Shown piece by piece: positions 21,625-63,796 of a stretch of 64,000 nt of DNA. The translations under genes were made by a program, and so were the position numbers. Under the pieces are notes generated by a model. The model saw nothing but the letters and a program-made list of their open reading frames with translations, had not been told where the DNA came from and made no database searches. The DNA comes from Polytrichum commune (taxonomy: Eukaryota > Streptophyta > Polytrichopsida > Polytrichales > Polytrichaceae). Every line of letters begins with the position of its first letter. The first letter of the stretch is position 1. The stretch is from positions 15,084,527 through 15,148,526 of the forward strand of contig OX485808.1 in NCBI GenBank assembly GCA_950295325.1. Reading direction: 5' to 3'.

Positions 21625-24548
21625 GCAGTTGCTCTTCAATAGATCTGGATGATGATGGTCATTGATTGTTCTTGGACCAAGAATCCAATGTTCATGGATC
21701 ATGGACAATGAATTCATTGTTCATGGATTGTGCTTGAATGGTCAACCCATCAATTATAAATTGTAGCAGATGTAACCCTAAACCCACCTTTCGATTGACG
21801 CATAGTTAACCATTGCTTTGCCTTGGATCGAACTCAATCAGGCTTGCAATGAAGCAATCCTAAAAATAAAGTAGTGTGGCGGTGCTGCAAAAATAGGGTT
21901 TCATTTAATGCCATTATCTAAATTAGGGCACAATTACCATAATTAACCTTCCACCCAAATCTTTGGATGTCTTTTCAAAACACACTATAGGATACTTGAA
22001 TAGTTTTATGAATATCATAAACTCATTTTCTTAAATCTATATAGTCTTGTTTTCTCAAAATAAATTTTTGCACACATTTTGTCACCAAGAGCCTCATTCT
22101 AGACAAACACAACAAAACTCTCCAATACCTCAAAGAAGTGATCTTCACCCACCATTGCACAAGATGGAAATGCCTCGTCCACGGTAGCTTCACCATCTTT
22201 GGGCCATCCAATCATTCAGTCCCCTTGTAGATCCTTCCTAGGAATTGCACATGCCCATCCCTTCCTTGCAAATGCCCTAAACACCTAATTTTTGAGATTT
22301 CAACACCTTTATCATGTTGGGGTTAATCCAAAAATAGCCATGTTGTGTTCATCTTGGGACATGCTTCCTATGTTTGAATGTACTGCAAGCACATAGCCGG
22401 TATGGAAAATTTATGCCAGTTAATAAATTATTAATTAATATTCCAAAAATCAATTCGGCATTAACATAATTGGCATTTTTAATGTTGGGTTTTTATTGAT
22501 TTGGCTTCTTCACAAATTCCCAAATCAAAACACATTGATTCAACTATAAGATTTGGGAGGAACACCTTTCCCTCTATACAAGTACAGTGGGAGTAGTGTA
22601 GAGTAGTGTACACAATCCATTTGGGATATGTAAATTGGAGAGAAAGCCCTGGTAGTGTCGGTATATAAATTTGTTCATATCTCTCCCATAACAATTTCAA
22701 ATCACAATAATGTTCGGGGTGGTACTCTATTTGATTGTTTAGGTTATCTTAGTTGGACAAAACTCCAAAATCCAATCAAGTTTACGTTCTATTTGAAATG
22801 GAGGTCCAAAAAATTGTTAAGGATTTAGACCAAGTTCTATAGTCTTGTAATTCCATGTTAACACATATCCTTTGCGGTGAGTTAAGATGAACTTGAGTAT
22901 GAGGTGAACCCTTTCTCTACCTAATATTCTACAACAATTTACCAACAAACATCTGCAAAGTTGAGTAGGTGAGATTTATACCATATTTTGGCAATCATTT
23001 AGATTAAATTTGCCAAATATGCAAGTATTTTTAAAATAATAAGGAATATATTTTTAGTATTATTGGTGTCATATTGGCTATCTACTTATGGTATGTGTGT
23101 GTGTGTGAGAGAGAGAGAGAGATTATTGCAAATGATGTAACCTCAACCTGGGGGTGCACTAGATTTCCTTATATGTAGTACATGGGTGTGCATAAGGGGT
23201 GCTAATTGTGATTATGAATTACATAACATACATAGGCTAAGGTGTTCTTCTTTTGGCAATGTAGATATATTATGGGTATCTTATGCTTTATGAAACATTG
23301 GACATGTACATAAATTTATATCAAGGACATACATATATAGGAGATTGGGTAGGGCTTACATCGGATATAACCATCCAACCTATAATCATTTGGTGCATTG
23401 ATGGCTCATCCACCGTCATTGCAAGTCATTAGAGCCATTAGTCATCAAGCATTGGTATCTGGGAAGGGGATGCACCAGGAGATTCCAAGTAAGTGGGTAG
23501 AGTATAGATCCAATTGACCTCATGAACCGACCTTTGAATACGGAAGTCAAGATTATGGCAGTATCAAAAGTCAAATGGATCAACATACACTTATGTTCTC
23601 ACCAACCACACGGTGGTAGACTTGACATAGTAATTGCATTGGCTACAATGACATTTCAGATAGGAGCCGTTTGTACAAATCACATTAATGGAGAGAAAAA
23701 CCTTTCATGACTTCATTAAGCAATAATGTAGTATTTTGTTCGTACAATTTATTGGATGCCTATTTTCTTGCAAGGAGTTATTTCTTGTATACATAGGATT
23801 GTATGGTAGAAGGTAGTTCTTTAAGTTCTTTAAGTAATTTGTGTATTGTATATACTTCTTGCTATTTTCTTTGCTATCACTTTGTATGTATTTTTTTCTT
23901 AACTATGAAAAAACTATATATAAGGGTATTGAAATCAAAGCAACGAATGCACCTGACATATGCTTCTAGTGAAGGCCCCCTATGAACATCAAGAAACCAC
24001 CATAGGCACATCAAGTTTGTGAGACGCAATTATGATCTTGTTTTGATTTGGATGAAACAAGTAGGGATGTGCAAATGGACAAGACGTGGCCTTTGGCCAT
24101 TATATCCTTCCATGATGAGATATGGCAATTCTTGACATGTAATTCTTAATTGAAGAAATTCTTTTAGTAACATGTTCAAAATGGTTGTTTTCTATTTGTG
24201 GTCAAGTAGCAGTCAACTTTAAAAGGGAGCTCAAAGAATGTGAACCATTAATTCTTGTTGATTGCAAGATTTAAAAAAAAACTGATATATATATATTTTT
24301 CAATTTTCAATTTTTTGCTACCAACAATCAATTTGGGGCAAAAGAAACATGAAAGAGGTGGAAGAAAGGAAAAATGGTGGGCTTTCTTATTTTTTGGTTA
24401 TTTTTTGCCCAACTTGCTATCAACCTACGGTAGTAAGAATGATGTTGCATATCATCATGATAGATGGCCTCAATGAAAAGAGTTGTCTTCTCATTTGGGA
24501 TAAACTTCAAAGGTCTCATAGAATTGCCTTATAAAATGCTCTTAATAC
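21625..24548. other. Intergenic, mostly unrecognised
   Basis: Contains a GT/GA microsatellite near 23096-23122. A coding-like remnant lies at 22020-22290 (listed separately). Nothing else is assignable. Confidence 0.35.
22020..22290 (-). pseudogene. Coding-like remnant of unknown family
   Basis: One minus-strand frame reads FARKGWACAIPRKDLQGD, stop, MIGWPKDGEATVDEAF, then CAMVGEDHFFEVLESF, a further stop, and NEALGDKMCAKIYFEKTRLY. The residue composition looks protein-like, but two in-frame stops interrupt it and I do not recognise the family. It may be a decayed exon or transposon piece, or chance. Confidence 0.2.
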
Positions 24549-24721
24549 AACATTATTAAGTAGTGGGTGTTTGTTCATGTGGGCCCTTAGAATATAACCA
24601 TGGGATGCCCCAACTTAGTGCAGATTCATATTGAATTTGAGTTCCCTTGCACTAGGTTGGGGCATCCCATGGTTATATTCTTAGGGTCCACATGAACGAA
24701 GACACACTGCGTAATAATGTT
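24549..24721. mobile_element. Palindromic MITE of family B
   Basis: 173 bp: two arms of about 75 bp (AACATTATTAAGTAGTG... and its mirror ...CGTAATAATGTT) around a short loop. Inner arm words include CCATGGGATGCCCCAAC and GTTGGGGCATCCCATGG. The same terminal arm occurs once, without its mirror, at 55618-55690, next to another repeat also seen at 40340-40570. Confidence 0.75.
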
Positions 24722-27700
24722 ATGAAGCAGATTGTTGACCAACATGCATACATAGATAGCTTATTGTGTTGAGTTTGACTAGATGTGGGTTGCCCACACC
24801 CATTGCTTATTTGTAGTATTTACGAGTTTGTTTTTGCATGGTATGCCATCATGCTCCAAGAACAAAAACTAAGATAGTTGAGCCTACAATAAACACTTTA
24901 AGAAACTTTTGCTAATTTGGGCAAGTTAGATAGCTTGGAAAATTCTCAAGAAAAATTCATAGATCAGCAAATATGCACAAACTCTAAATTATTATTTTTA
25001 AAAAAATTATAAATTCATATGCAACCTACAAAATAAGCCTTTTACTCTCCACTAAGGGGGTTCATTGATGTTGGATTGCAAGGTGAGAATCAACACAAAT
25101 CGGCCTTATTGTGGGCACTGAGGGTCTTTTAATAAATGAAGGTGTTGTCCCTCTTTTGTGGATCACTTTGTAGCCTTGTTGAGTGGATAAATCCCCAATT
25201 GGCCTTTATGATTGGCCAAAGTTGGTGTTCATCTTAAATTGTTCTTGCATCCTTCTTACACTGCTACTATGAGTGGCTAAAGTGGTGTTAATTTATTGCT
25301 TAATCGTTGTTAGCAATGGCTACTTGATGGCACAATTGCATTCACTTGTTGATGGCTTAAGGATGAAATACCAAAAGGAAAGTGTTACTTTTAGGCATTT
25401 CAACTTTATATGTTGATTCTTTTGGTTGGTCCAAGGGTGTTTCTCTAAGTGATTATGGGTTGGGGTCAGAAGTCCACATGTTTGAGTTGGGCCCCTACCA
25501 TTATTACCCAAAGAGAAAACGTAGTCCATAATATATATACATATCATCATCATCATCATATGCCTTGAATCAATCTACAAAGGCCCCACTTGACATTAAT
25601 TAACCACCAAATCTATAGAGGTCAAGTTTCTACAAAACCCTCCTTACTTTAGAAATAGTGGTGGGGGCCCAACTCAATTAGCAATTGCATATAAGAAAGG
25701 TTGTCATGCCAAGTTTCATAATTGGAGTTCAATTACAAAGTTAGAAGAGGTCAAAATAAAAACGTTCTTTTGGTTTAAATGATTGCAAAGGCCTTCTCAG
25801 TTTTGATATCTATGAGTTGACCATGACATGTGTCTTTTTGGTGTCCATTCTTAATCACAAGCACATCACACTCCTTGTCATATGCCACTCAAATGTAGGT
25901 GTGCAATGAAGAAGAACCAACACATGAGGCCCTTTCTAAGACCCCATAGTGTATATCTTCAAGGGGCCCCACGCAAGTGTAACGAGGCTTATAAAATATA
26001 ATTTTTGAACATCATGCCCAAGGCATAACATCATTCAATTACATAATTGTGTTCCATTTTATATATTAGGATCCGACATGGGCCTCCGCCATCTTATCTT
26101 CATGGGAAGAAACTTAGAAAATAGGAAAAACTAACACCGTTACAAATAATGAATAGTGCTAGATTGAATCGTAAGAATATTGTGAATGGTGTCGGTATTT
26201 CCAGTGATCATTCAATTATTAATAGTAATTCAAATGAACAATAAAGGGATAAAAAGTGTTTCATGTGAATATACATGGGATGAACAGTAATTCCTACACA
26301 TAGTGCCAAGAGTATAACTCCACCCAAATTTCCAAGTTATGCCTAAATTTATGAATAGTAAATGGATATTCCTAGTTTGTTCGAGAGGCCCATAGAATAT
26401 AATTGACATATTCTAGGACCATGGAACCAACCCACATGGCTAAATAATGTTTCGAAAGTTACAAGATTATTGGGCACCTTAATAGAAAGTAATGGGCTCA
26501 CACTACAATAGATTAGGGGGTAAACATACATATAACAAGCCATATTCTATTGTGATAATTGATGCCGCTAAATAATAATGAAAATGTTGTCCTTAAATCG
26601 TTGTCAACATGATATGTCTTCTTAGACCTAGTCTTGTTGTCATTGTTTGCGGGTGGTAGCCAATGACTCTCATACCCTCAACATTTTTGAGTTCCACATT
26701 TGAAGAGGAAATGAAGGTAATGTGGTTGCTCATGTGGGATTCCCACTATGCACCCGATGTTTAACATCCACGGAATCCAAAATTTCATTTACATCCAATC
26801 TTACAAGGTGTTTGGTGTGTCTTTGAAAAACTTTATAGATCATTCGCACAAGTCTTTGTCTTGAGTAGAGATATGATAAGGTGAGTGGGCCTAAAACCAA
26901 TATTTTATATTTGCACCTATTTTTCAAACTAAACATTCAATTGCAACAAGATGATCAGCAAATCGAAGTCAAGGTCATAGTCTGGGGGTGTTATCATGTG
27001 AGTGGTGAAGGGGGAAAGGATGTTGGATTCACACACACTTGTATCCTATAAACTATGGATTATTAACATGAAATATATGAATACTCCCTATGAAAACATG
27101 AAATGGGGGTTGAAATTTTTTTGTACATACTTTATTGATGTACATTAGTGACATGACATACATAATGCTTAGGTTGTTTCTTAAATTCAAAAACTCAATA
27201 GCAGTGGCCAACACGTTGTTAAAGTAATGCTACGCCAACATAAGCACCTTTATGGATAAATTGATTCAATGATGAAAGACTTGAAATCCATGAAGACCAA
27301 GTTATTTTAAAATTTTAAAAACAAATCCCAAAGCATTGCAATCATTCAGCAATCTCCACATTGCATCTAACAAAACTAAAAAAAATTCTAATCAAATCAA
27401 GTATAAAATCAGATCAAGTGTATTCAAATACTACACTCCTATGTTGCCTCTAAGAGGAAATAATTCTCCATGTGTGACAAGATTCTTCTTGTTCTCATAT
27501 GAGGTTGCGGGTGTGGACAAGGAGAAACTCATATGCTCAAATGAGTCTTCCAAACTTTTTTTTTTTTGACATCTTCTTTCTCACGGCCATGGATTGTGGT
27601 TGGTGTTTGCACTCAGGGGGGGCAGTGTGTTAAAAAGTTAAGGATATAGGTGCGAACAACCACTATTTTATAGGGGGGTATTACTTTCAATTCTCTTCTT

Positions 27701-29929
27701 TTTTTCACATGCTATCATTATGTAAATTTCTACTTTGGGTTAATAGAAAAATGGCTTGTATTACTTATAATTCCAAATTACCTATTATTCCATACCCTAT
27801 AGTACTTTAAAGATGTCCAGTGCCATTTTTGATACCCTATATTACTCTTAAGTCCATTTATAATATTTAGCCCCCATGTTTTTAAAATACCCTATCATTT
27901 GTTCGCACGTATATTGCTACTCCAACCAATGACTACCCCCCCCCCCCCCGAGTGTTTGCACTCTAAGACATTGAGTAGATAATGTACAAAGTGGAGCGAG
28001 AATTTTTGAAAGAAATGGAAGTCCGCCTCATATGCAACAAGATGACAACCATTGTACAAACACACATGAATAGAAGCACCTACAAACACCATTGATATAA
28101 ATCAATATTAACAAATGTAACTAGTTAATTATGTTACAACTAAGAGAATGTATTTGTCAATGCAGTGATATCTACAACCTTTCCGCTAGGCTAAGTAAAT
28201 GATCCGATAAACATCTGGTGTAAGAGTGAATTCTTCTCTCAAGCACCCCGCAATGATCCCAATCCATTCATCAATACAACCATGATAATTGCAATAAAGA
28301 ACTTCAAAAAAAACACTCAAATGTGGTATTAAACTTCAAATTACCTATACAATTGAAAGCTTTCTTTATAGCTATCCCTCCAAAAGGGAAGTTTAAAAAC
28401 TTGATGCCCTTAGAGAACGGAGGTACTACATGTACCAAAGTGAAGAATGTTTTTCCCAAAGCATAATACACCATACCTTGACATAATCAGAAGCCTTGAG
28501 AACATCATCCCTCCATTTAATTTTACCCAACCCTTTCTTGATATTTTCAAATTCATTTTCAACCTTCTCCTCCTCCAACTAAGGATGTGTAAATGGATGT
28601 GATGTAGCTCCCAGCCGTTATGTCGCATCATGCTATGGCCGTTATGTTTGCAATTTTTCCAACGTCGTCTCAAATTCTGGATTGGAGCTCCAATGCGTAT
28701 TGACCTGGGAAAATAATTAAACAATAAATATGTATATTATGGCACATAAAGAAAGGGAATTTCAAATGAGAACTAAATTTACCTTTCCAAGAAATCCACG
28801 GTGCTTCAATAATAAGCAATTTTTCAAACTCCCTAGTTCTAATACTTTTGATAATTTTTATATGTGACTTTAATGTCACTGCCCTAAGCCCTATTCCAAC
28901 TTGTCCTTGGAAGGTGTAGTATTTAATAAATCTTACAAGCCTTGCCAATAACTGCAACAACCCCACGTTGCAAATACAAACACATTAAAGACTTAAATTT
29001 TGAACATGAATGGAAAAACAAACATACATAAACTAAACAAGGATTGTGGAATGATATTATATAAGAATTTTGCACATGCGTCAATGCTTAATGCATATCA
29101 AGGCAAATAAAAAAAAATAAAAAATTGCTATTTTTGTAGTTGTGAGCTGAAATCTATGATTTGAAATCCTCGAGAGGTGAACACCAAAAATGATGAATGC
29201 AATGATATTTATAGATAGGATTGGTCTTTAGATGATCATTCTCAATGGACTTGGAAGTAATGAACAAAAAGATTAATCAAAACGGAAAAAATGATTAAAA
29301 AAACTTAAAAGGAACCAAATATGCAAAGAATACATGTTCACATTGCTTTGAGGACTCCAATATTTCCCAAATGCATCCAAGCATATGCAATCACAACATA
29401 ATGTTATTTTGGATCATTTGTTTCAGCTCAAATGATTTTCATCGCAAATAAAAAACATTTTGTCTCACAAACAGGCATATTTATCATCAACAATAATTTT
29501 CTCCTCACAAGAAGCATTAGTGGCATGCTAATGAACGCTTTTAAGTTTTTTTTAGCAATTGATCCAAATTGATTACCCAATTCATTAAAAAAAAATTGAT
29601 ATGTGGAAAACCATTTGCCTTTTCTATAACCATTGATAAAAAAAATTTGTGAAAAATTTCACATCAACATGAAGATTAGGCCTAACCACACCTAATGATA
29701 CCATCCAATATATAGAGTTAGAATTTCTTGAATTTCTTGATGATTTATTGTGCAAGTTGCTAATAACCGAATTGAAATTTTTCTTCTTTGGTTTCTACAT
29801 GTTATTGACAACCTCCTTAACATCCTCCAATGATTCAACATTTTTATTGTCATCGTCAATATTACATGCGTGTAAATCATGAATCCAAAAATGTATCAAA
29901 TCATTTATGACAATATATTAAGACTCAAT
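24722..29929. other. Long intergenic stretch, no gene recognised
   Basis: AT-rich. Poly-T and poly-C tracts at about 27560 and 27936. The minus strand near 28330-28570 has protein-like frames (for example VENEFENIKKGLGKIKWRDD) broken by frameshifts; the family is not identified. No clear transposon ends. Confidence 0.35.
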
Positions 29930-30580
29930 CATTTAAGCGGTAATGACACCAACAAGAATCAAGTATATAAGAATTTGATTATGTAAGATTCAAGTATGTA
30001 AGAACTTAAATATGCAGCATTTAGGCATGTAAGAATTTATAGATTAAAAAAATGTAAGAGTCAAGCATGCAACATTTTAGTATGCAAAAAATCAAGCATG
30101 ATAATTTAAAAATATAAAAGCATTCAAGTATGAAAGATTTAAGTATACAAGAATCAAGAATGCAAGAGCTAAGAATGTTAGAATTCAAACATACAAGAAT
30201 CAAGAATTTCAATATGCAAAAATTCAAGTAAATATAATATAAAAATATGTAAAAATTAGAATATAGAAGATTCAAGTATGGGTGTATGTGTAAAGCTAAG
30301 TATGTAAGATATAAGTATGCTAGAGTCCAAGCATACAAAAATCAATAACTCGAGTATGGAAAAATTAAGCATGCAATAATCATGTATGTAAAAATCCGTG
30401 TGTGCTAGATTCAAATTTACAATGTACATGAATCAACATGCAAAATGTAAGTAAATAATAATCAAATCTTGTGATATACGAGTACGCAATCATACAATAT
30501 GCAAATATAAACTAACACAACATCCAAGTATGTTCGAGCATACAACATCTAAGTTTGAAGACTCAAGTGTGAAGACACAC
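29930..30580. repeat. Degenerate minisatellite based on AAGTATG(T/C)AAGA
   Basis: About 650 bp in which TCAAGTATGTAAGAAT-like words of roughly 14-18 bp recur dozens of times with heavy substitution. The open frames on the minus strand (FCILKFLIL-like strings) are by-products of the repeat. Confidence 0.7.
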
Positions 30581-31992
<1,412 letters not shown>

Positions 31993-32125
31993 AATTGTGG
32001 TTTGATTTTGTGAGAACCACAGTTATGAATCAAGTCTAGTTATTTGATTGGGTTTTGATTTTATGAGAACCACGGTTATGAATCAAGTCTGGTTATTTGA
32101 AAATTTGAGAACCATGGTTATAGTT
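31993..32125. repeat. Tandem repeat, about 59-bp unit, 2.5 copies
   Basis: GTTTTGATTTTATGAGAACC and TATGAATCAAGTCT(A/G)GTTA recur in direct order; a third truncated unit (TTTGAGAACCATGGTTAT) follows. Confidence 0.75.
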
Positions 32126-33199
32126 TGGAAAAACCACCCTAATAACCAGAGAGGATTTCATGCCAATTTTCATACCCCACCAACATTGGTATAAACGTAG
32201 CACACCTAAACAAAATGCAAAGACATAGACCTCAAGAGTAACCAAGACATGTGAATATTAGACCATGGTGTCATTATATGCACATTTTGTAAGCATATAA
32301 CGTTGATTGAGGATGTGTACTAGTCTGGACACTGCAAAAGGCTCTTGAAGAATACACATATGCAAAATTGTCGAATACAATCTCACAAAAATAAAAAAAT
32401 TACTTGATAAACAAAATACACCTTAAATAATAATTGGGGCCTATAAAGGTAGTGAATGTGATTGTAGTGTTGTCACATGAATGTTTTCTATATCAAAGTA
32501 ATAGATAATCCTTTATATTTGATTTAAATTGGTATTTGTGGCTCTAAAAGGTGGTGATAGAATGTTATTGAAGGAATTTAACAAGCTTAAACCTCAATTT
32601 TATAGGGGTGTTTAATAAGGGGTTGGAGGATGTATAAAAGAGCTATCAACTTGTAAATTTCAAAAAAACAAAAAGTCAAACCTCTCTACAATTTGATTTT
32701 ACAAGTATCAAAGCAATACAAAGGGTATGTCATGTTATTGTTTCGACAAAATTCTTTAGATTTCTTTAAAATGAGTTAACAAATGTTGGGAATTCAAAGT
32801 GATAAATGGAAACATTACTAGAAATAACATTTTGAGTTTGTAAAAAGTGTCCTAAAAAATCATGGTATTGAAGTTACACCAAGCTCACAAATGGGTCTCG
32901 GTAACAATTTGTGCATGTGGCTACCATATAGGTAGTGTAAAGTAGGTGGCCTTAGGACTATACATTACTACGTAAACATACGTTAACAATTTTATGTTAA
33001 GCAATAATGTCACATTCTAGGCTCACATAAAATAAATCTCCATGTCATCTTACCACAACCAAACCAATTCTTTACATTACCCCCGGCACGTCATATATTG
33101 TGCTTCTTTAATCATATGACCAATTACAATGCATATCTTTTATACAAAATGATTAACAATGAACAAATTTGTTTATCATCAAAATGTAAATTTCTAGTA
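32126..33199. other. Intergenic, no gene recognised
   Basis: AT-rich with no long open frame and no paired repeat seen. Confidence 0.4.
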
Positions 33200-34340
33200 A
33201 TTTCTCACCTTCCCAAGAGCCCTATAGTATTATCTCGGGCCGTAAAATAAGACTGCCAAGAACCACATTCACATCCCTCAAGTTCTTCATCCCATCTTCC
33301 CCACCCCAACCCAACCCCTTGGCCTCCCCCTCTCCACATGCAAATCGGGCTCACCACGTCAAGAGAGTAATTGTAGTGTAGTATTTCCCCAAATTTCCAA
33401 GTACCAAACGTTTGTTTTTGATGTGCGTAGTCTAGAATGCTCACCATTCCAAACACTTGGGGGAAAAATCTCCAAAATTGTCAAAATAATACGAATTTCA
33501 AGCATTTTCTTGCCTTTACAACGTCCTTGCAGTGCCAGGGGTAATTATAGTCCCATTTTTGCCTCCCTTCTAAGCTCCCCATTGCACCTTCCCACCACCT
33601 TGGCCTCTGCTTTCCCCTCAAAAATGAGGCTTTCCTACTTCATGTGAGCACTTACGGTATAAACAATTCTCAAAAGTATAGTTTCTTTGATTTGATGTAA
33701 ATCTTTTGGAGTGCTCATCGTTCATATTCCCTAGAAAACAATGTCAAAACTAACTTAAGTTTTAGCAAATTTTCGCCTTTCCAAGCACTAGGATGTGTTG
33801 TTTTAGGCCCCGTAAGAAGACTACCAGCAACAACAAGCCCATTTTGGCCTCCCTTTCACGCTTTGCATTCCACCTTCCCACTCCCTTGGCCTCCCCCTCT
33901 CCCCTCGCACATTGGGCTTTTAGTGTGATGTGAGCAGTGACTATGTGAACAATCCTCCAAATTTCAAAACATAAATCTTTTTTTAATGCACATTTTGGAG
34001 TGCTCATTGTTATGATCACCTAGAAAATTTTCAAAAGATTCAAGCAATCCAAGCAATTTTATTATTTTCTCGGTTTTTCATAGGCTAGGAATGTTATTTT
34101 AGGTCCCAAAATGGAATTGCCAGCAATGGCAATGGCAATGGCACTTTGGGCTCCTTTTCAACCTCCCCATCCTAACTTTGAGTCCCCTTCACCTCCCCTT
34201 TTGCCATCCCAAATCGGCTAAGTACTTCTTTGTGTGAGCATTGGCCTCCAAATAATTCTCAAAAATTCAAAATATCAAACAATGTTTTTTGGTACGCTCT
34301 TTCAGATTGCTCATCATTACAATCACAAGGAAAAATAAAA
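33200..34340. repeat. Tandem array of four diverged ~285-bp units
   Basis: Three anchors recur in the same order: a CCTTTCCAAG-like word (about 33209, 33511, 33774, 34071), a CCTTGGCCTCCCCCTCTCC-like pyrimidine block (about 33319, 33599, 33884, 34180), and GGAGTGCTCATCGTT-like (about 33427, 33704, 33993, 34299). Spacing is 263-306 bp. The units are strongly diverged, so the array is old. The four pyrimidine blocks make it richer in C than its surroundings. Confidence 0.8.
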
Positions 34341-36569
34341 AATAAAAAATAAAATCTAAGATGTACCATCGGTGCAATGTACCAAAATTGTAATTACAAA
34401 AATTAGTTTTTGGATTGTGCCCATCCTAATTTGTTTGTGGTCACCATCACTTAAAACATTATTGGATTATAGGTATATGTACATAAAACAAACAAATTAC
34501 AGGCATAAGAAAATAAAAACTTGGTCATTGAGGGGTGGGGGTGGGGTAGAGCCACGGATAAGCAACCCCAATTTCATGAGCTAGTCACAAAATGACATTT
34601 CTCCAAGCATCGTAAATAGATAACACGAGTGCATGATATTCCACCATCTTAGTAACCTCTACTCTCCACTCTTTGCAAACTAACCTAAGTGCTTGAAAAG
34701 CACTTAACTCATTTATATGGGTGCAAGCACGGTAAAGTGGACAACACTTGATCATTGCACAGGTTTAACTGAGAGTGATTCAAAACAATATACTAACTTT
34801 GAGTTTTTTGTAAGACGAATCATTAAAATTAAAAAAAATATTGATCTACAAAGCCAAGCAATTTATGTTGACCAAAAAATATAAAAAAATCTGCATATTT
34901 TAGAAGACAATGCACGTGGGTGTGCAAGCGGTCATATTGAATAAGTATTTGTCATAAAATTGTCTAAAATATGATAAAATTACATTGAATTCATGATTTC
35001 CTAAAAGATTATTTGATGATGACCTCAATTGTATAATGAATTCAAGGAACATAAAGAACTCAAGTTCAAAATACTTTGTGTCCGAAACCGGATCTAGCTG
35101 TTTGCTTTTGAGCATTTCTCTTAATGATACGTTTGAAGATTTCTCTATGGCGATCTACATTTGAGTGCTTCACACAACAGAAACATCACCATGAATAAAA
35201 AATTGATTTAAAAAATATTTTGCTACTAATTTTAGGCCCCAAAAATTATGATTTTAAGATACCGGTGCACTTTTTTGGCCCACTTTACCATGCCTCGACC
35301 CATATTCTTTTGATGTGCCAGTGTCTAGTTTACGCCTTTCATGTTCTTCCGAAATAGATAGAAAATGTATTCTCTCACAACTTTCCCAAAAATCTTTCGT
35401 AGAGCATCCATCACTCTTACAATTTGCAAAACGTATGGTGCAACTCAAATCACAAGCACACTCTACCGATTGTGTTGACAATACAATCTTGTGTGGAACT
35501 TATGGAGTAAGTCTCCCGCCAAATCCACCAAATCCTCATTAAATTATTCACAAATAAAGTTCATGGTTATTTTAAATTCTACTTAATAGACAATCAAAAC
35601 ATGATTATTACGACTTGATTAACCTCAACCGCAACACCTTAAATCATATTTAAAAAGTGAAAAGTATGCAAGCATGAACAAAAGTACGAATTACTTGCAT
35701 GGTTTCTTAGACCAAGGCTATCTTGAACATAAATTCCTATATCAAAGTGTTCTTGTCATCTTGCATCTTGCATTGATTTCAATTACAACCACCATCAAAT
35801 TGTTCTACCCTTTCCCACCTACCCAACCTATCAACCCTCCAATCTCACATTAAAATCACATAAAACATTAATCCTAGACTATGGTCTAACATTATTTGCT
35901 AATGCACGCCCATCCACTGTATATCCAACATTAGTGATGTCATTAACTTTTCGATGTTGGTGCAACCTAGGAATGGGTTGCCACCTAATATTTGATGGGG
36001 TTTGCAACCCGCTAGGTGGCAATCTACGTGGATGAAAGATATCTATTGGTGTAGGGTGGTGCCCACTATCATGTGGGCCAAAATAACATAAAGACCTCAT
36101 ATTCCAAGCATGTAGGATTTTTGTTAGTTCAACATTGCTTTTTTGGGGAGGCAGTCTCATGAGTTGCCCACATGTAAGAGCCAAATTTAGGAACCAATAT
36201 CTTTCATATATGATGCCCAATTCGGTTGGGGTTTTTACCCTTAGGACAAGGTGATGGTTATGCATAACTTGATTGGATAGATGTGGAACAATATTAGTGC
36301 ACATGTTACTTGCTCCATTAAAAAGAGGAAATCTCCCAAAATGGCCTCATGTGGCCCTCCAACTTTAAAGGTGACGGACTTCATTTAAATTTGCTAAAAA
36401 AAACCCCAAATTTTTGGATGCAGCTCATTTGTCATCCACATAATATATTATGGCACATTTTCCAACTACCAAAAATTTGTGGCATGACCAAAATGGTCAA
36501 TAAACAATTTTTTTTAGAGTTTTCTCTAGGTACCCCCTGGATGAATGCCCTATTCATATGTGACCTAAC
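34341..36569. other. Intergenic, no gene recognised
   Basis: A 141-codon minus-strand open frame at 35879-36304 has no motif I recognise. The rest is AT-rich without structure I could pair. Confidence 0.35.
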
Positions 36570-37005
36570 AAATGTGGTCCACTCACGGGAAGGTCACTCC
36601 ATTGTCAAGTTGTACACCACGTGCGAACAAAGTTTGCTACCCCTATATTACATGCCATAGATCATTTTAAATTTTATAAAAAAATATAAATATAAATAAC
36701 CACTGATAGTATTTTTTTTGAAATTTTTAGTCATCTTCGTTTTTGTAGTAATTTTTTTAGTTCAATTCTACGTCACTCTAGTTAGAAACGGTATGTTTTA
36801 TTTTTAAAAAATCATCAAATTTAGTTACCATTTTTTACTATGTAATAGGTACTGTGTATATCTACTCATGAAAAAAATTTGATAAAAGTTTGACCCATTT
36901 TGGTGATGCTTTATGTAAAAAGTAGGATTTTTTACATGTGAAGTGTTCGCATGTGGTTGTTCAACTTTACAATGGAGTGACCTCCCTGTGGGTCCACTTG
37001 ATTTC
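36570..37005. mobile_element. Inverted-repeat element, probable MITE
   Basis: Arms of about 60-75 bp at 36575-36632 and 36927-37001 share GGTCACTCCATTGT(C/A)AAGTT and ATGCGAACA/GTGCGAACA, around an AT-rich centre. Superfamily not determined. Confidence 0.5.
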
Positions 37006-38736
37006 AAATTTTGATATCAAGAATACATAGTAGATTAGTTCACATCCGCATGGTTGGATTTCATGAAAACAAAGTCTTATTTTCTACATAACAAATATTT
37101 TTAGCATTGGTGCTAGAAATGCCGGAAAATGGAATGTGAAGGCTTGAGCGTTTAGGGGGTTAAAGAATCAGGCAAAGGTGGCAACCTAGTATATTGTTCA
37201 GTGGCCAGGTTGAAATATATCATAATCAATATGTGGATCAACTCCTTGCCTTACTTTCCTTCCTTGTTCTCCAATGTTTTCCCAAATATAGCCCAAACAA
37301 GGTAGAACGTGAGTGGTGGTGGGGCACAACTACTTTATATAGCATGTGGGTGACAACACACGCCTTGATATCGGCGGACGTTAAGTTCCCCCCACGAACT
37401 TTTTTGGGGAGGAATATTCGGGCAGGGGCAGCCGCCCGACAGATTTTCTGAACCCGACCGAGAACTATTGCATGCCGCCCGACTTCGAAAAAACTATTGT
37501 CCTTGCATTCTTGAAGGCCGCTTATCCACAAATCCCATATTGAGTGCACTTCATTTTCAAGGTCCCAAATCCAATATATATGTTCACTTCCATTAAGTAA
37601 ATAAGCGATTGATTGGATTTCATTCACAAAGTGAAACCTAATAAATTTTGATTAATTTTGATTAATTCTAATTAAGCCCAATTAAATAAAAAAGAGTGCT
37701 AACCAAAATAATTAAGCCTAATTAATTATAAAATGTACTTACTAGAATTAATCACGATTTATTAGAATTAACTCCAGTAAATATAATTTATAATTAATTA
37801 GGCTTAATTAATTTGGTAAGCATATTTTCTGATTTAATTCGGCTTCATTAGGATTAATCAGAATTAATTAGAATTAGTTACATTAAATCACATTTATTTT
37901 ATTTATTTTCATATGAATACTTTGTGAAAGTAGAAGTTATTAACTAGACTATTATTTTTAACATACAAAAAAAAATCATTAATTCTAGTTTCATTTTAGA
38001 ATGAAAAACACCCTTTCAATGGTAAGTCACAAAAATTATAACCTCAATGCTAATGAGGATTTCGTAATATTTTTAACTTCCAAGTTAATTACATGTTTTA
38101 TTGGCGGTTTCACTTTGTGAATGAAATCCAATCAATCGCTTATTTACTTAATGGAAGTGAACATATATATTGGATTTGGGACCTTGAAAATGAAGTGCAC
38201 TCAATATGGGATTTGTGGATAAGTGGCCTTCAAGAATGCAAGGACAATAGTTTTTTCGAAGTCGGGCGGACGAGCAACAGTTTTCGGTCAGGTCCAGAAA
38301 ATATGTCGAGCGACTGCCCCTGCCCGAATATTCCTCCCCCAAAAAGTTCGTGGGGGGAACTTAGGGCCCATTTCTAGGGCCCATTTCCAAACCCTAGGCA
38401 TCAACCAATGAGAGTGCTTAGATTGCCCAAATGGACCCTAATATGGGCCCAAGGGCTTTATATTGAGAGTCGGCCCACTTCTCCTAAAGCTTGCGTGGCG
38501 GGTGACATGGTGGTGTTTTGGAGGGAAAGAAGTGGGCCGAAGGCAAAAAAATGGGTCGAGGGTTTATGGAGACCCACTTCGCATCTACGGCCCACTTCAC
38601 CCAACTTCCGTCATATAGTCATTTATGACTTTATGACTTTATGACTTTAGTTCAAGCAAGGGCATAATTCATTTAAGACAAAATGGGCCATGGATTGGGC
38701 CTTACAATATAATGTCCCTAGGCCCATTTGGAAGGC

Positions 38737-39577
38737 CAGGGTTGTCTATTGTGTCGTGACGGAGGCTAATCCCGACATAATGTCGTGGCGTCACGACACG
38801 TATCTGTCACGACATTATGCCGGATGCCGTCTTTATCCTGACGAACTTGAATTTTACCGTATTTTTTTGTGTAATTACATTACCCCAATTAGGACACGTA
38901 GGATTTACGATGTCCACGTATGGTGCCATGTCAGCAAAGTAGAGGTAAAGTGGGAAAAAAATTATTAGCGCCCGTCCCCCCCCCCCCCCCGTTCCCCCCG
39001 CTCCCTACGTTCCCCTCCCCCATCCGGCACCCCATCCGCCCCCCCCCCCAATCCGAACCCGGCCCCCCCTCCCCCCCCCCATCCGAACCCGCCCCCCCCC
39101 TAATCCGAACCCCCCCCCCCCCCCATCCGAACCCGGTCCCCCCGAATCCGAACCCCCTCCCCCCCCAATCCGAACCCCAATCCAGCCCCCATCCGTACCC
39201 CATCCGGCCTCCATCCGGTACCCCATCCGGCGTTCCCCCCGTCCGCATCCGTTCCCGCCCCCGTTCCCGTCCCCGTCCGCTCCGTTCCCCTGCCCCCCAC
39301 ACCCTCATTTGTCATATTTTACTACTTTGATTTTAACAGAATGATAAACACAAAGGCAAAATGATTTACCTGGCAAGGGAAATATGCACATCCACGTCGG
39401 ATTTTTCTGCCACATTGGATGCCACCTTGGCAAGAAGGTAAGTATTTTACCCACCCTACTAGCTTCCCCCTAGTATGACCCTACGTGGACCCTATTATGT
39501 CATGACGGAGGGGTCCGCCCCGACACGACACGTCATGACGTCATGACGGTGGCAGGACGTCGCGATAGACAACCCTG
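38737..39577. mobile_element. hAT-like element nested in the Harbinger-like element
   Basis: 841 bp with ends CAGGGTTGTCTAT(T/C)G and their mirror (ATAGACAACCCTG). The flanks TGGAAGGC (38729-38736) and TGGAATGC (39578-39585) form an 8-bp duplication with one mismatch, as for hAT. Subterminal regions are packed with CGTCACGACA / TGTCATGACG words, like hAT transposase-binding sites. The centre is a C-rich array. Confidence 0.8.
38970..39295. repeat. C-rich minisatellite (C-run + ATCCGAACC units)
   Basis: About 325 bp in which long C-runs alternate with ATCCGAACCC or ATCCGGTACC. The complementary strand has many G-runs and could form G-quadruplexes. Overlapping long open frames on both strands here are artefacts of this composition. 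Confidence 0.85.
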
Positions 39578-39786
39578 TGGAATGCCCACTTTAAAGTAGA
39601 ATTTCCAATTTGGGCCCTACAAGTGGGCCTATGGACTTTATATTGCAAGGCCCACTCAACGGCCCACTTTGTAAAGTAGGGCTAAAGTTAAGGCCCACTT
39701 CAAGTCCAAGTGGGCTCAACTCCAAATCGGCCGGCCGCCAAATGGGCCCTAATATAAAGTGCCCCTTAACGTCCGCCCTTGGTATC

Positions 39787-40680
39787 ATTCTGCTACTTGG
39801 CACCCCATCATTTTCCATTTAGATGATCTACAACCAATAAACATGGTTAGTCGACTACTGAGTCTAGATAAGTTGAATGCCAATGTCAATTGATCCCAAC
39901 ATGCTGACTAGTCTATCTCTTATGCTTGCCACAACATGTTGACATGACAAATTGATTTGCCTCGTCGCCATGGTAATCCATGTCGACTTGGCAAGCCGAC
40001 ATGTTAAGCATTGGCATAGACTATCGATTTGGCATTCAACACATCAACATGGCATCCGAATTGTCATGCGATGTTAATTGCAAAGTCGGCATGTTTTGGT
40101 CAATTTGGCAAGACCAATCGGCTAAGAAGATCGACCGGTTTTGTCAAGTCAACTCACATGATAACTAGTTAGATCCCATATCCAACCTTGGCCCCCACCC
40201 ACCCCGGGCTCGGCGTTATCCCAAGGTAGAGTAGACGCACCCATATTCAATCACTTATGGGATTATGCGCTAGATCTGGACAAGTATAAGGCGGTGCAAG
40301 TTTTTCCCATGTAGGAAGATGGACATCAAGAGGATTGTAAATATTTTGGTGATTTTATTCCTTGTATTGAAATTATTGTGAATTTTTGAAACCAAAAGTT
40401 GGCCCAAACATATTACCAATGTCTAGAGTCTGCCATGATTACTGTTCATTTGAATTGTTCATTCGTCCTCACTTAACACTCAAACCAGGGACATGTGTCA
40501 TGACACTATTGATTATGGTCTTATTCAAATACAATCCCTGGCTGATTGAAATTCAATCCCAACCTTATCAAAATCATGACACCCTATAGGCTCTTGAAGG
40601 GGTCCTAATCGGGAATAGGCGCCTCTACTCTAAATCCCAATGGGGGAGAGCCCTCGACGGATGCAAATATCTTTGTGACC
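39787..40680. repeat. Intergenic with a dispersed repeat (family B relative)
   Basis: The segment 40340-40570 recurs inverted at about 55680-55900; shared words include AACATATTACCAATGTCTAG and GACATGTGTCATG. The rest shows nothing recognisable. Confidence 0.5.
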
Positions 40681-62498: not shown

Positions 62499-63796
62499 GG
62501 GGGACGTTAAATACCCCCCCACGAACTTTTCGGACTGTCAGATCCGGGCTGGGGCAGCCGCCCGTCCAGAAAATCTGGATTTTCTGGACCCGCCCGAAAA
62601 CTGCTGCCCGCCCGCCCGATTTCGAAAAAACCATTGCCCTTGCATTCTTGAAGGCCACTTACTCACAAATCCCATATTGAGTGCACTACACCTTCAAGGG
62701 CCAAAATCCAATATATATGTTCACTTCCAATTGAGTAAATAAGCAATTGACTGGGGTTTCATTATCAAAGAGAAACCGTCAATAAAACATGTAATTAACT
62801 TAGAAGTCCAAAATATTACAAAATCCTCACTAGCACTGAGGTTATAATTTTTGTGACTCACAATTTGAAATTGTCTTTGTCATTCTAAAATGACACTTAA
62901 TTTAGTGTGCTGATTTAGTATGTGTATTTTATAATATTTTAGGTAATGCCGTCTACTTTCACAAGTATTCATACGCATTCATTAATCAATTATTAGAACT
63001 AATTCACTGGAATTAAATTCCAGAAATTAGTTATTATAATTAATTCACTGGAATTGATTCCAGAAATTAATTATTATAATTAATTCACTAGAATTAAATT
63101 CCAGATATTAACTATTAGAATTAATTCACTGGAATTAAATTCCAGATATTAATTATTATAATTAAATCACTGGAATTGATTCCAGAAATTAATTATTAGA
63201 ATTAACTCACTGGAATTAATTCCAATAATTAATTAATTACAGTAAGTACATTTTATAATCAATTAGCTTTACTTAATTTTGTAAGCATAGTTTCTGATTT
63301 ATTTGGGATTAATGAATGCGTATGAATACTTGTGAAAGTAGACGGCATTACCTAAAATATTATAAAATACACATACTAAATCAGCACACTAAATTAAGTG
63401 TCATTTTAGAATGACAAAGACAATTTCAAATTGTGAGTCACAAAAATTATAACCTCAATGCTAGTGAGGGTTTTGTAATATTTTTGATTTCTAAGTTAAT
63501 TACATGTTTTATTGACGGTTTCACTTTGATAATGAAACCCCAGTCAATTGCTTATTTACTCAATTGGAAGTGAACATATATATTGGATTTTGGCCCTTGA
63601 AGGTGAAGTGCACTCAACATGGGATTTGTGAGTAAGTGGCCTTCAAGAATGCAAGGACAATGGTTTTTTTCGAAATTGGGCGGGCGGGCAGCAGTTTTCG
63701 GGCGGGTCCAGAAAATCCAGATTTTCTGGACGGGCGGCTGCCCCAGCCCGGATCTGACAGTCCGAAAAGTTCGTGGGGGGGTATTTAACGTCCCCC
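62499..63796. mobile_element. Mutator-like foldback element, nearly intact
   Basis: 1298 bp with inverted arms of about 485 bp (62499-62986 and 63312-63796) differing at only about a dozen positions by eye. Ends are GGGGGACGTTAAATACCC. A perfect 9-bp duplication CAAGCAGAT flanks it (62490-62498 and 63797-63805). Each arm has a GC-rich outer part with a small hairpin (TCCAGAAAATCTGGA) and an AT-rich inner part. The loop is a tandem array. No transposase, so it would depend on another element. It is the same family as 37373-39777. Confidence 0.9.
62990..63240. repeat. Tandem array, ~41-bp unit x 6, in the foldback loop
   Basis: Units TTAATTCACTGGAATTAAAT.. alternate with CCAGAAATTAATTATTATAA, each unit being itself a small palindrome around GGAATT..AATTCC. 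Confidence 0.85.

Follow-up and report, generated by a model that had tools for sequence, protein, structure and literature searches.

A nest of three DNA transposons in Polytrichum commune and a terminal TTA of a Mutator-like foldback element that is repeatedly occupied by PIF/Harbinger-type MITEs

Results

Three transposons nested at one locus

The window analysed here is a stretch of 64,000 nucleotides on contig C6 of Polytrichum commune (OX485808.1, positions 15,084,527 to 15,148,526), and the genome searched comprises 407.8 Mb in 64 contigs, the bulk of it in seven of them. Four long open reading frames are present in the window, one with a Myb-like and one with a tyrosinase domain match, and all four lie outside a nest of three transposons, in which a hAT-type element (full span 38737-39577) resides within a PIF/Harbinger-type element (38364-39765) that resides in turn within an outer Mutator-like foldback element (37373-39777). 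The names Mutator, Harbinger and hAT are putative assignments, based on ends and target duplications in layers without a linked transposase. Along the plus strand, the nest opens with the left 9-bp target site duplication (TSD) of the outer element, CTTGATATC (37364-37372), followed by the main part of the outer element (37373-38363, with its left arm at 37373-37638), which ends in a TTA (38361-38363). This TTA is the first copy of the PIF-type TSD and, as described below, the position in the outer terminal repeat at which insertions recur. Next comes the left part of a PIF/Harbinger-type MITE (38364-38736), which is without its true left terminus (about 16 bp) and closes with the left hAT TSD, TGGAAGGC (38729-38736). 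The non-autonomous hAT-type element that follows (38737-39577) is 841 bp long with ends CAGGGTTGTC, and is bounded on the right by its second 8-bp TSD, TGGAATGC, with one base changed (39578-39585). The right part of the MITE, with the right terminus intact (39586-39765), leads into the second TTA copy of the PIF-type TSD (39766-39768), the severed 9-base tip of the outer right terminal repeat, ACGTCCGCC (39769-39777), and the right 9-bp outer TSD, CTTGGTATC (39778-39786).

A sequence-only reading of the window had proposed a three-level nest of this kind, and the nest is real: all three boundaries were recovered in the sequence, and a genome search with each layer found stand-alone copies of every layer elsewhere, with the same boundaries and without the inner inserts. 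The three TSD lengths assigned in that reading (9 bp for the outer element, 3 bp for the PIF layer and 8 bp for the hAT layer) were borne out at the locus and in free copies. The claim that every layer has matching ends held for the outer element, the hAT element and the right end of the PIF layer, but the left end of the PIF layer proved to be internal sequence; likewise, copies elsewhere generally end as the window copies do, except at the PIF left end, where they extend about 16 bases further.

The layers and their free copies

Removal of the Harbinger layer had been said to restore the mirror image of the outer element base for base, and with the PIF layer and one TTA removed in silico the terminal 32 bases on the right of the outer element do mirror its other end exactly. 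Aligned along their 266-bp length, the two arms agree in 254 of 267 columns. The outer terminal sequence is GGCGGACGTTAAG, and free outer copies are foldbacks across most of their length. Besides the window and a twin locus described below, 27 outer copies were listed; the TSD test drew on 20 of them, with 4 left outside the fetched set and three others (L023, L061 and L062) appearing partial or rearranged. A 9-bp TSD was present in 14 of the 20 (8 exact, 6 with one mismatch) and absent in 6, each of the 14 being fitted best by a length of 9. From its left inner arm the window copy lacks a segment of about 229 bp that the twin keeps. The window holds a second copy of the outer family (62499-63796), flanked on each side by CAAGCAGAT; its arms are 98-99% complementary and its end TTA is unoccupied. 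An autonomous partner for the outer family was sought through the MULE domain, and none of the 142 genome matches was tied to outer ends; by eye, no such match lay within any pair among the 100 listed of 159 outer ends.

Identical TNA duplications flank the window's MITE family at 27 of 40 loci (13 TTA, 10 TAA, 4 TGA); both ends were located in 35 loci, 8 of which have non-identical TNA, and 5 loci are without both ends located. The 27 sites give an extended palindrome, W-C-TNA-G-W, as the target motif of the family. All 20 first-batch copies have their PIF halves joined without a hAT element, leaving the hAT target uninterrupted, and in all 20 GGGSCNCTTTATATTA precedes GGGCCCATTTCT, which indicates that the window copy, beginning at GGGCCCATTTCT, has lost about 16 terminal bases at its left end. 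The simplest route for this loss would be a deletion between TTAGGGCC repeats, by which internal sequence was joined to the TTA as the apparent left end. Terminal inverted repeats are present in free PIF copies and not in the window copy, whose left terminus is gone; the twin copy has kept the true left terminus, immediately inward of which one 13-base repeat is missing. At four MITE sites among the 27 (L049, L085, L089, L097) the insert adjoins the apparent end of another PIF-type element, GGCCC or GTCCC standing in front of the TNA, an arrangement that suggests a role for G+C-rich sequence next to CTTA. MITE multimers, with which these four sites may be compared, are known in other plants.

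An 8-bp TSD flanks all 11 copies of the hAT family, one of them with a single mismatch, and two of the copies (L005 and L006) share one site. Both hAT ends carry short terminal inverted repeats, CAGGGTTGTCTAT, of the CAGGG type that is typical of hAT elements. Within the window copy, the stretch at 38971-39300 is 76% G+C (65% C on this strand) and contains imperfect repeats of the CCCCATCCGAACCC type.

A twin locus fixes the order of events

A twin locus lies 14.5 Mb away on the same contig, at C6:29627900-29632700, and matches the window through both flanks. The duplicated block occupies 34168-40423 of the window on the plus strand, with its duplicate at C6:29626243-29631854, and a further matching segment lies leftward at 22857-26796; the twin side of the two segments together is C6:29619666-29631854, at 95-98% identity. 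The intervening window sequence, 26796-34168, has no counterpart on the twin side except a short inverted repeat match further left. The outer element and the PIF layer are present in the twin and the hAT element is absent, with a single clean TGGAAGGC and no footprint in its place, and the two 9-bp outer duplications of the twin have the same sequences as those of the window, including the A/G difference between them. When 700-bp flanks on each side of the outer element were used to look for an empty target site (40 candidates scored per flank), none was found; the unique flanks matched the window and the twin only, both occupied.

Since the twin has the outer element and the PIF layer without the hAT element, the order of events was outer element, PIF layer, locus duplication and hAT element. 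The insertion order previously read from the nesting holds, and the hAT-less duplicate confirms its last step independently. That reading had also spoken of three superfamilies active in turn, of which the sequence shows an order of insertion at this locus and not separate periods of activity. K2P distances between the flanks of the window and those of the twin are 0.034 (left) and 0.027 (right). At 1.3e-8 substitutions per site per year, the rate that the available text of PMC3903597 quotes, they place the locus duplication at about 1.0-1.3 million years, a figure to be taken for scale only. Between window and twin, K2P is 0.051 and 0.063 in the outer element, about twice that of the flanks, and 0.017 in the PIF layer, below the flanks.

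One terminal TTA is occupied in many outer copies

Two outer copies that had been fetched for their similarity alone, L029 and L032, carry different PIF-type MITEs at exactly the same TTA. In total, this outer-end TTA is occupied by PIF-type MITEs in 14 separate outer placements with both junctions verified and the twin uncounted; besides the window and the twin, the verified placements number 13 (L029, L032, L063, L064, L065, L066, L070, L071, L076, L080, L082, L122 and L124). Verification extended to L032, whose end is too diverged for the search pattern; in L067 and L075 the inner junction alone was found.

A pattern joining the outer tip to a PIF start matched at 12 places, compared with 159 intact ends when the tolerance was equal. 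Verification succeeded for 8 of the 12, the twin among them; of the other four, L068 and L069 have the end junction only and two are the inverted duplicate L072/L073. All 32 matches to a wider pattern were read, and only 14 were verified (twin included); the same pattern reversed, as a control, gave 8 matches. The remaining matches to the wider pattern comprise L121 and L126, which have outer sequence in which the inner junction was not found, L068 and L069 again with the end junction only, L133, L145 and L146, which are intact outer ends, the two members of the inverted duplicate, and nine without outer sequence. Another junction search gave 95 matches, of which 19 were read; outer sequence adjoins the junction in 14 of these and is absent from the other five (L074, L077, L078, L079 and L081).

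Two loci touched by these searches deserve separate mention. The end-pattern matches L072 (C6:7055550-7056900) and L073 (C6:7065400-7066750), 11 kb apart and inverted, resemble a large element, a reading rejected on the absence of outer sequence there; the pair is identical over the 200 bases compared and is apparently duplicated coding sequence. At C3:53812680-53817000 (L069 and L145), two outer-family tips stand about 4 kb apart in inverted orientation with common flanking bases, one intact and the other with a PIF-type start at the TTA.

The inserts of 14 placements were compared (the window, the twin and 12 others), with L122 recognised alongside and standing outside the comparison. Among them (13 inserts if the twin is left out), five families that show no similarity to one another were recognised: the family of the window; that of L029, L064, L066, L070 and L124; that of L032, L063 and L076; that of L065, L071 and L082; and that of L080. 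Two of the families include inserts of either orientation with respect to the outer tip. Counting one event for each family and orientation, at least seven insertions have taken place at this TTA, or eight by a coverage criterion, and a single nested ancestor as the sole cause of the common TTA is ruled out by the five families and the two orientations.

Excision, co-transposition and target motif as alternatives

Two alternatives bear on how many insertions there were and when they occurred. The hAT element might have predated the locus duplication and then been lost precisely from the twin, which we regard as barely credible: the twin has one clean TGGAAGGC with the footprint absent, and according to the available part of PMC2836001 most plant excisions outside PIF/Harbinger leave a footprint or a deletion. 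The common TTA, for its part, might reflect one old PIF insertion that was co-transposed with the outer element, as for the Tourist MITE Os0548, which occurs in 107 rice MULEs in the account given in a portion of PMC3903597, and inserts of the same family and orientation are indeed shared by L029, L064 and L066, by L032 and L076, and by L065, L071 and L082. Against this, the seven or eight events counted above are the minimum for five unrelated families of which two occur in either orientation, and within pairs of the same orientation the inserts are mostly closer to each other than the adjoining outer arms are (95.3% against 83.5% identity in L065/L071, 89.6% against 83.1% in L029/L066, and 81.3% against 75.9% in L032/L076), which favours separate insertions. 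The exception is L082, whose outer arms are nearer to those of L065 and L071 (85% and 88%) than its insert is to theirs (82% and 83%), so that co-transposition may have occurred there. On balance, co-transposition as the explanation of the shared site is quite unlikely, and repeated insertion is the reading we retain.

Whether repeated insertion requires anything beyond the PIF target motif is a closer matter. If the outer tip is a good target in an abundant family, repeats are expected, and the end site, AACTTAACG, has A-C-TTA in common with the motif W-C-TNA-G-W; with a 13-bp matrix the hit TTA and its mirror rank 5 and 6 of 162 TNA sites in the outer element, and the four MITE sites of 27 that abut PIF-type ends raise the possibility that the G+C-rich flank of CTTA is itself favoured. 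With the 7-bp core matrix, in contrast, the same two sites rank only 22 and 26 of 163, and the matrix-expected share of insertions is 2-6% for the end pair against 28-41% for the best internal pair, the matrix representing a single MITE family of the five through its 27 sites. The comparison covers one internal site, AACTAAGTC, and this better-scoring motif has 653 intact pattern matches, counted as matches and not verified singly. A pattern for insertions at it gave 53 matches, and none of the 22 that were read lay within an outer element; the 22 comprise 13 with a PIF-like start, one other and 8 of 39 beginning GGTGC, these 8 loci being a single unrelated repeat, with 31 matches unread. Setting 7 verified placements and 159 intact ends at the tip against 0 and 653 at the internal motif gives a Fisher P of 1.3e-5, a value in which the kinship of the copies overstates independence. 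The motif alone could plausibly account for the recurrence, at somewhat less than an even chance in our judgement. We advance with still more reserve, as a tentative and rather doubtful proposal, that several PIF/Harbinger-type MITE families may prefer the outer tip beyond its local motif, through structure, chromatin or protein occupancy.

Discussion

The sequence-only reading was right about the nest and its order, and missed the recurrence of the PIF insertion point. Taken together, the results very probably reflect a locus history of four events and an end TTA that has been hit repeatedly by five PIF-type families. In this history, a non-autonomous Mutator-like foldback element inserted first, duplicating 9 bp, as its structure and its copies show; the enzyme would be of the Mutator type. 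A Tourist-type PIF/Harbinger MITE, probably moved by a PIF-type transposase, then entered the TTA by the outer tip and duplicated it, cutting the last 9 bases off the outer terminal repeat and probably immobilising the outer copy. The locus was next duplicated within its own chromosome, as the twin attests, and finally, barring precise loss from the twin, a non-autonomous hAT-type element entered the MITE in one of the duplicates. The preference for the TTA would likely be due in part to sequence (A-C-TTA next to a G+C-rich tract) and in part to a further feature of the terminus, which is invoked since by the core motif alone internal sites would be favoured.

PIF at the maize r locus, reportedly described by Walker et al. 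in 1997, is said to show 'strong target site preference', as is seen here; the target there is said to be a gene, and here it is a transposon terminus. FARE of Arabidopsis is reportedly a Mutator/foldback element. Like the Tourist-like MITEs mPIF and mPing, the inserts have a 3-bp TWA-type TSD, G+C-rich ends and a preference that extends beyond the TSD; unlike them, several families here have a single base position within another transposon's terminus in common. Extended targets of 9 bp are described for PIF and mPing in plants in the available part of PMC2836001, and a TWA duplication for Tourist in that of PMC12595863. The closest parallel is Os0548, likewise a Tourist-type MITE at a single site across many MULE copies, which the accessible text of PMC3903597 presents as one insertion amplified with its host, whereas here there are five families, two of them in both orientations. 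The outer element resembles Tm1 of root-knot nematodes in being a foldback with 9-bp duplications, which are the predominant length in Tm1 (PMC3169594, in part); Tm1, in contrast, has composite tandem-repeat termini, and some of its copies carry a transposase (same part of PMC3169594). None was linked to the outer family here. Nested and clustered MITEs have been described in carrot (a portion of PMC3695323), as have insertions nested inside PIF/Harbinger elements in Medicago (a portion of PMC2213677). Several PIF-type families at a common site in a MULE terminus were not reported in the literature searched, a body that takes in few subscription papers.

In plants, DNA transposon nests are commonplace, and the present one is a clean case in which a locus duplication serves as an internal clock. 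The recurrent site is less ordinary: at least five families have taken the same base in a repeat of which more than 100 ends are intact, and a few hundred bases away no insertion was found at a better motif among the matches read. It amounts to a natural replicated experiment on PIF/Harbinger target choice, mildly surprising and testable. If a preference for the outer tip beyond its motif were true, PIF/Harbinger elements would repeatedly disable Mutator-like elements at their termini.
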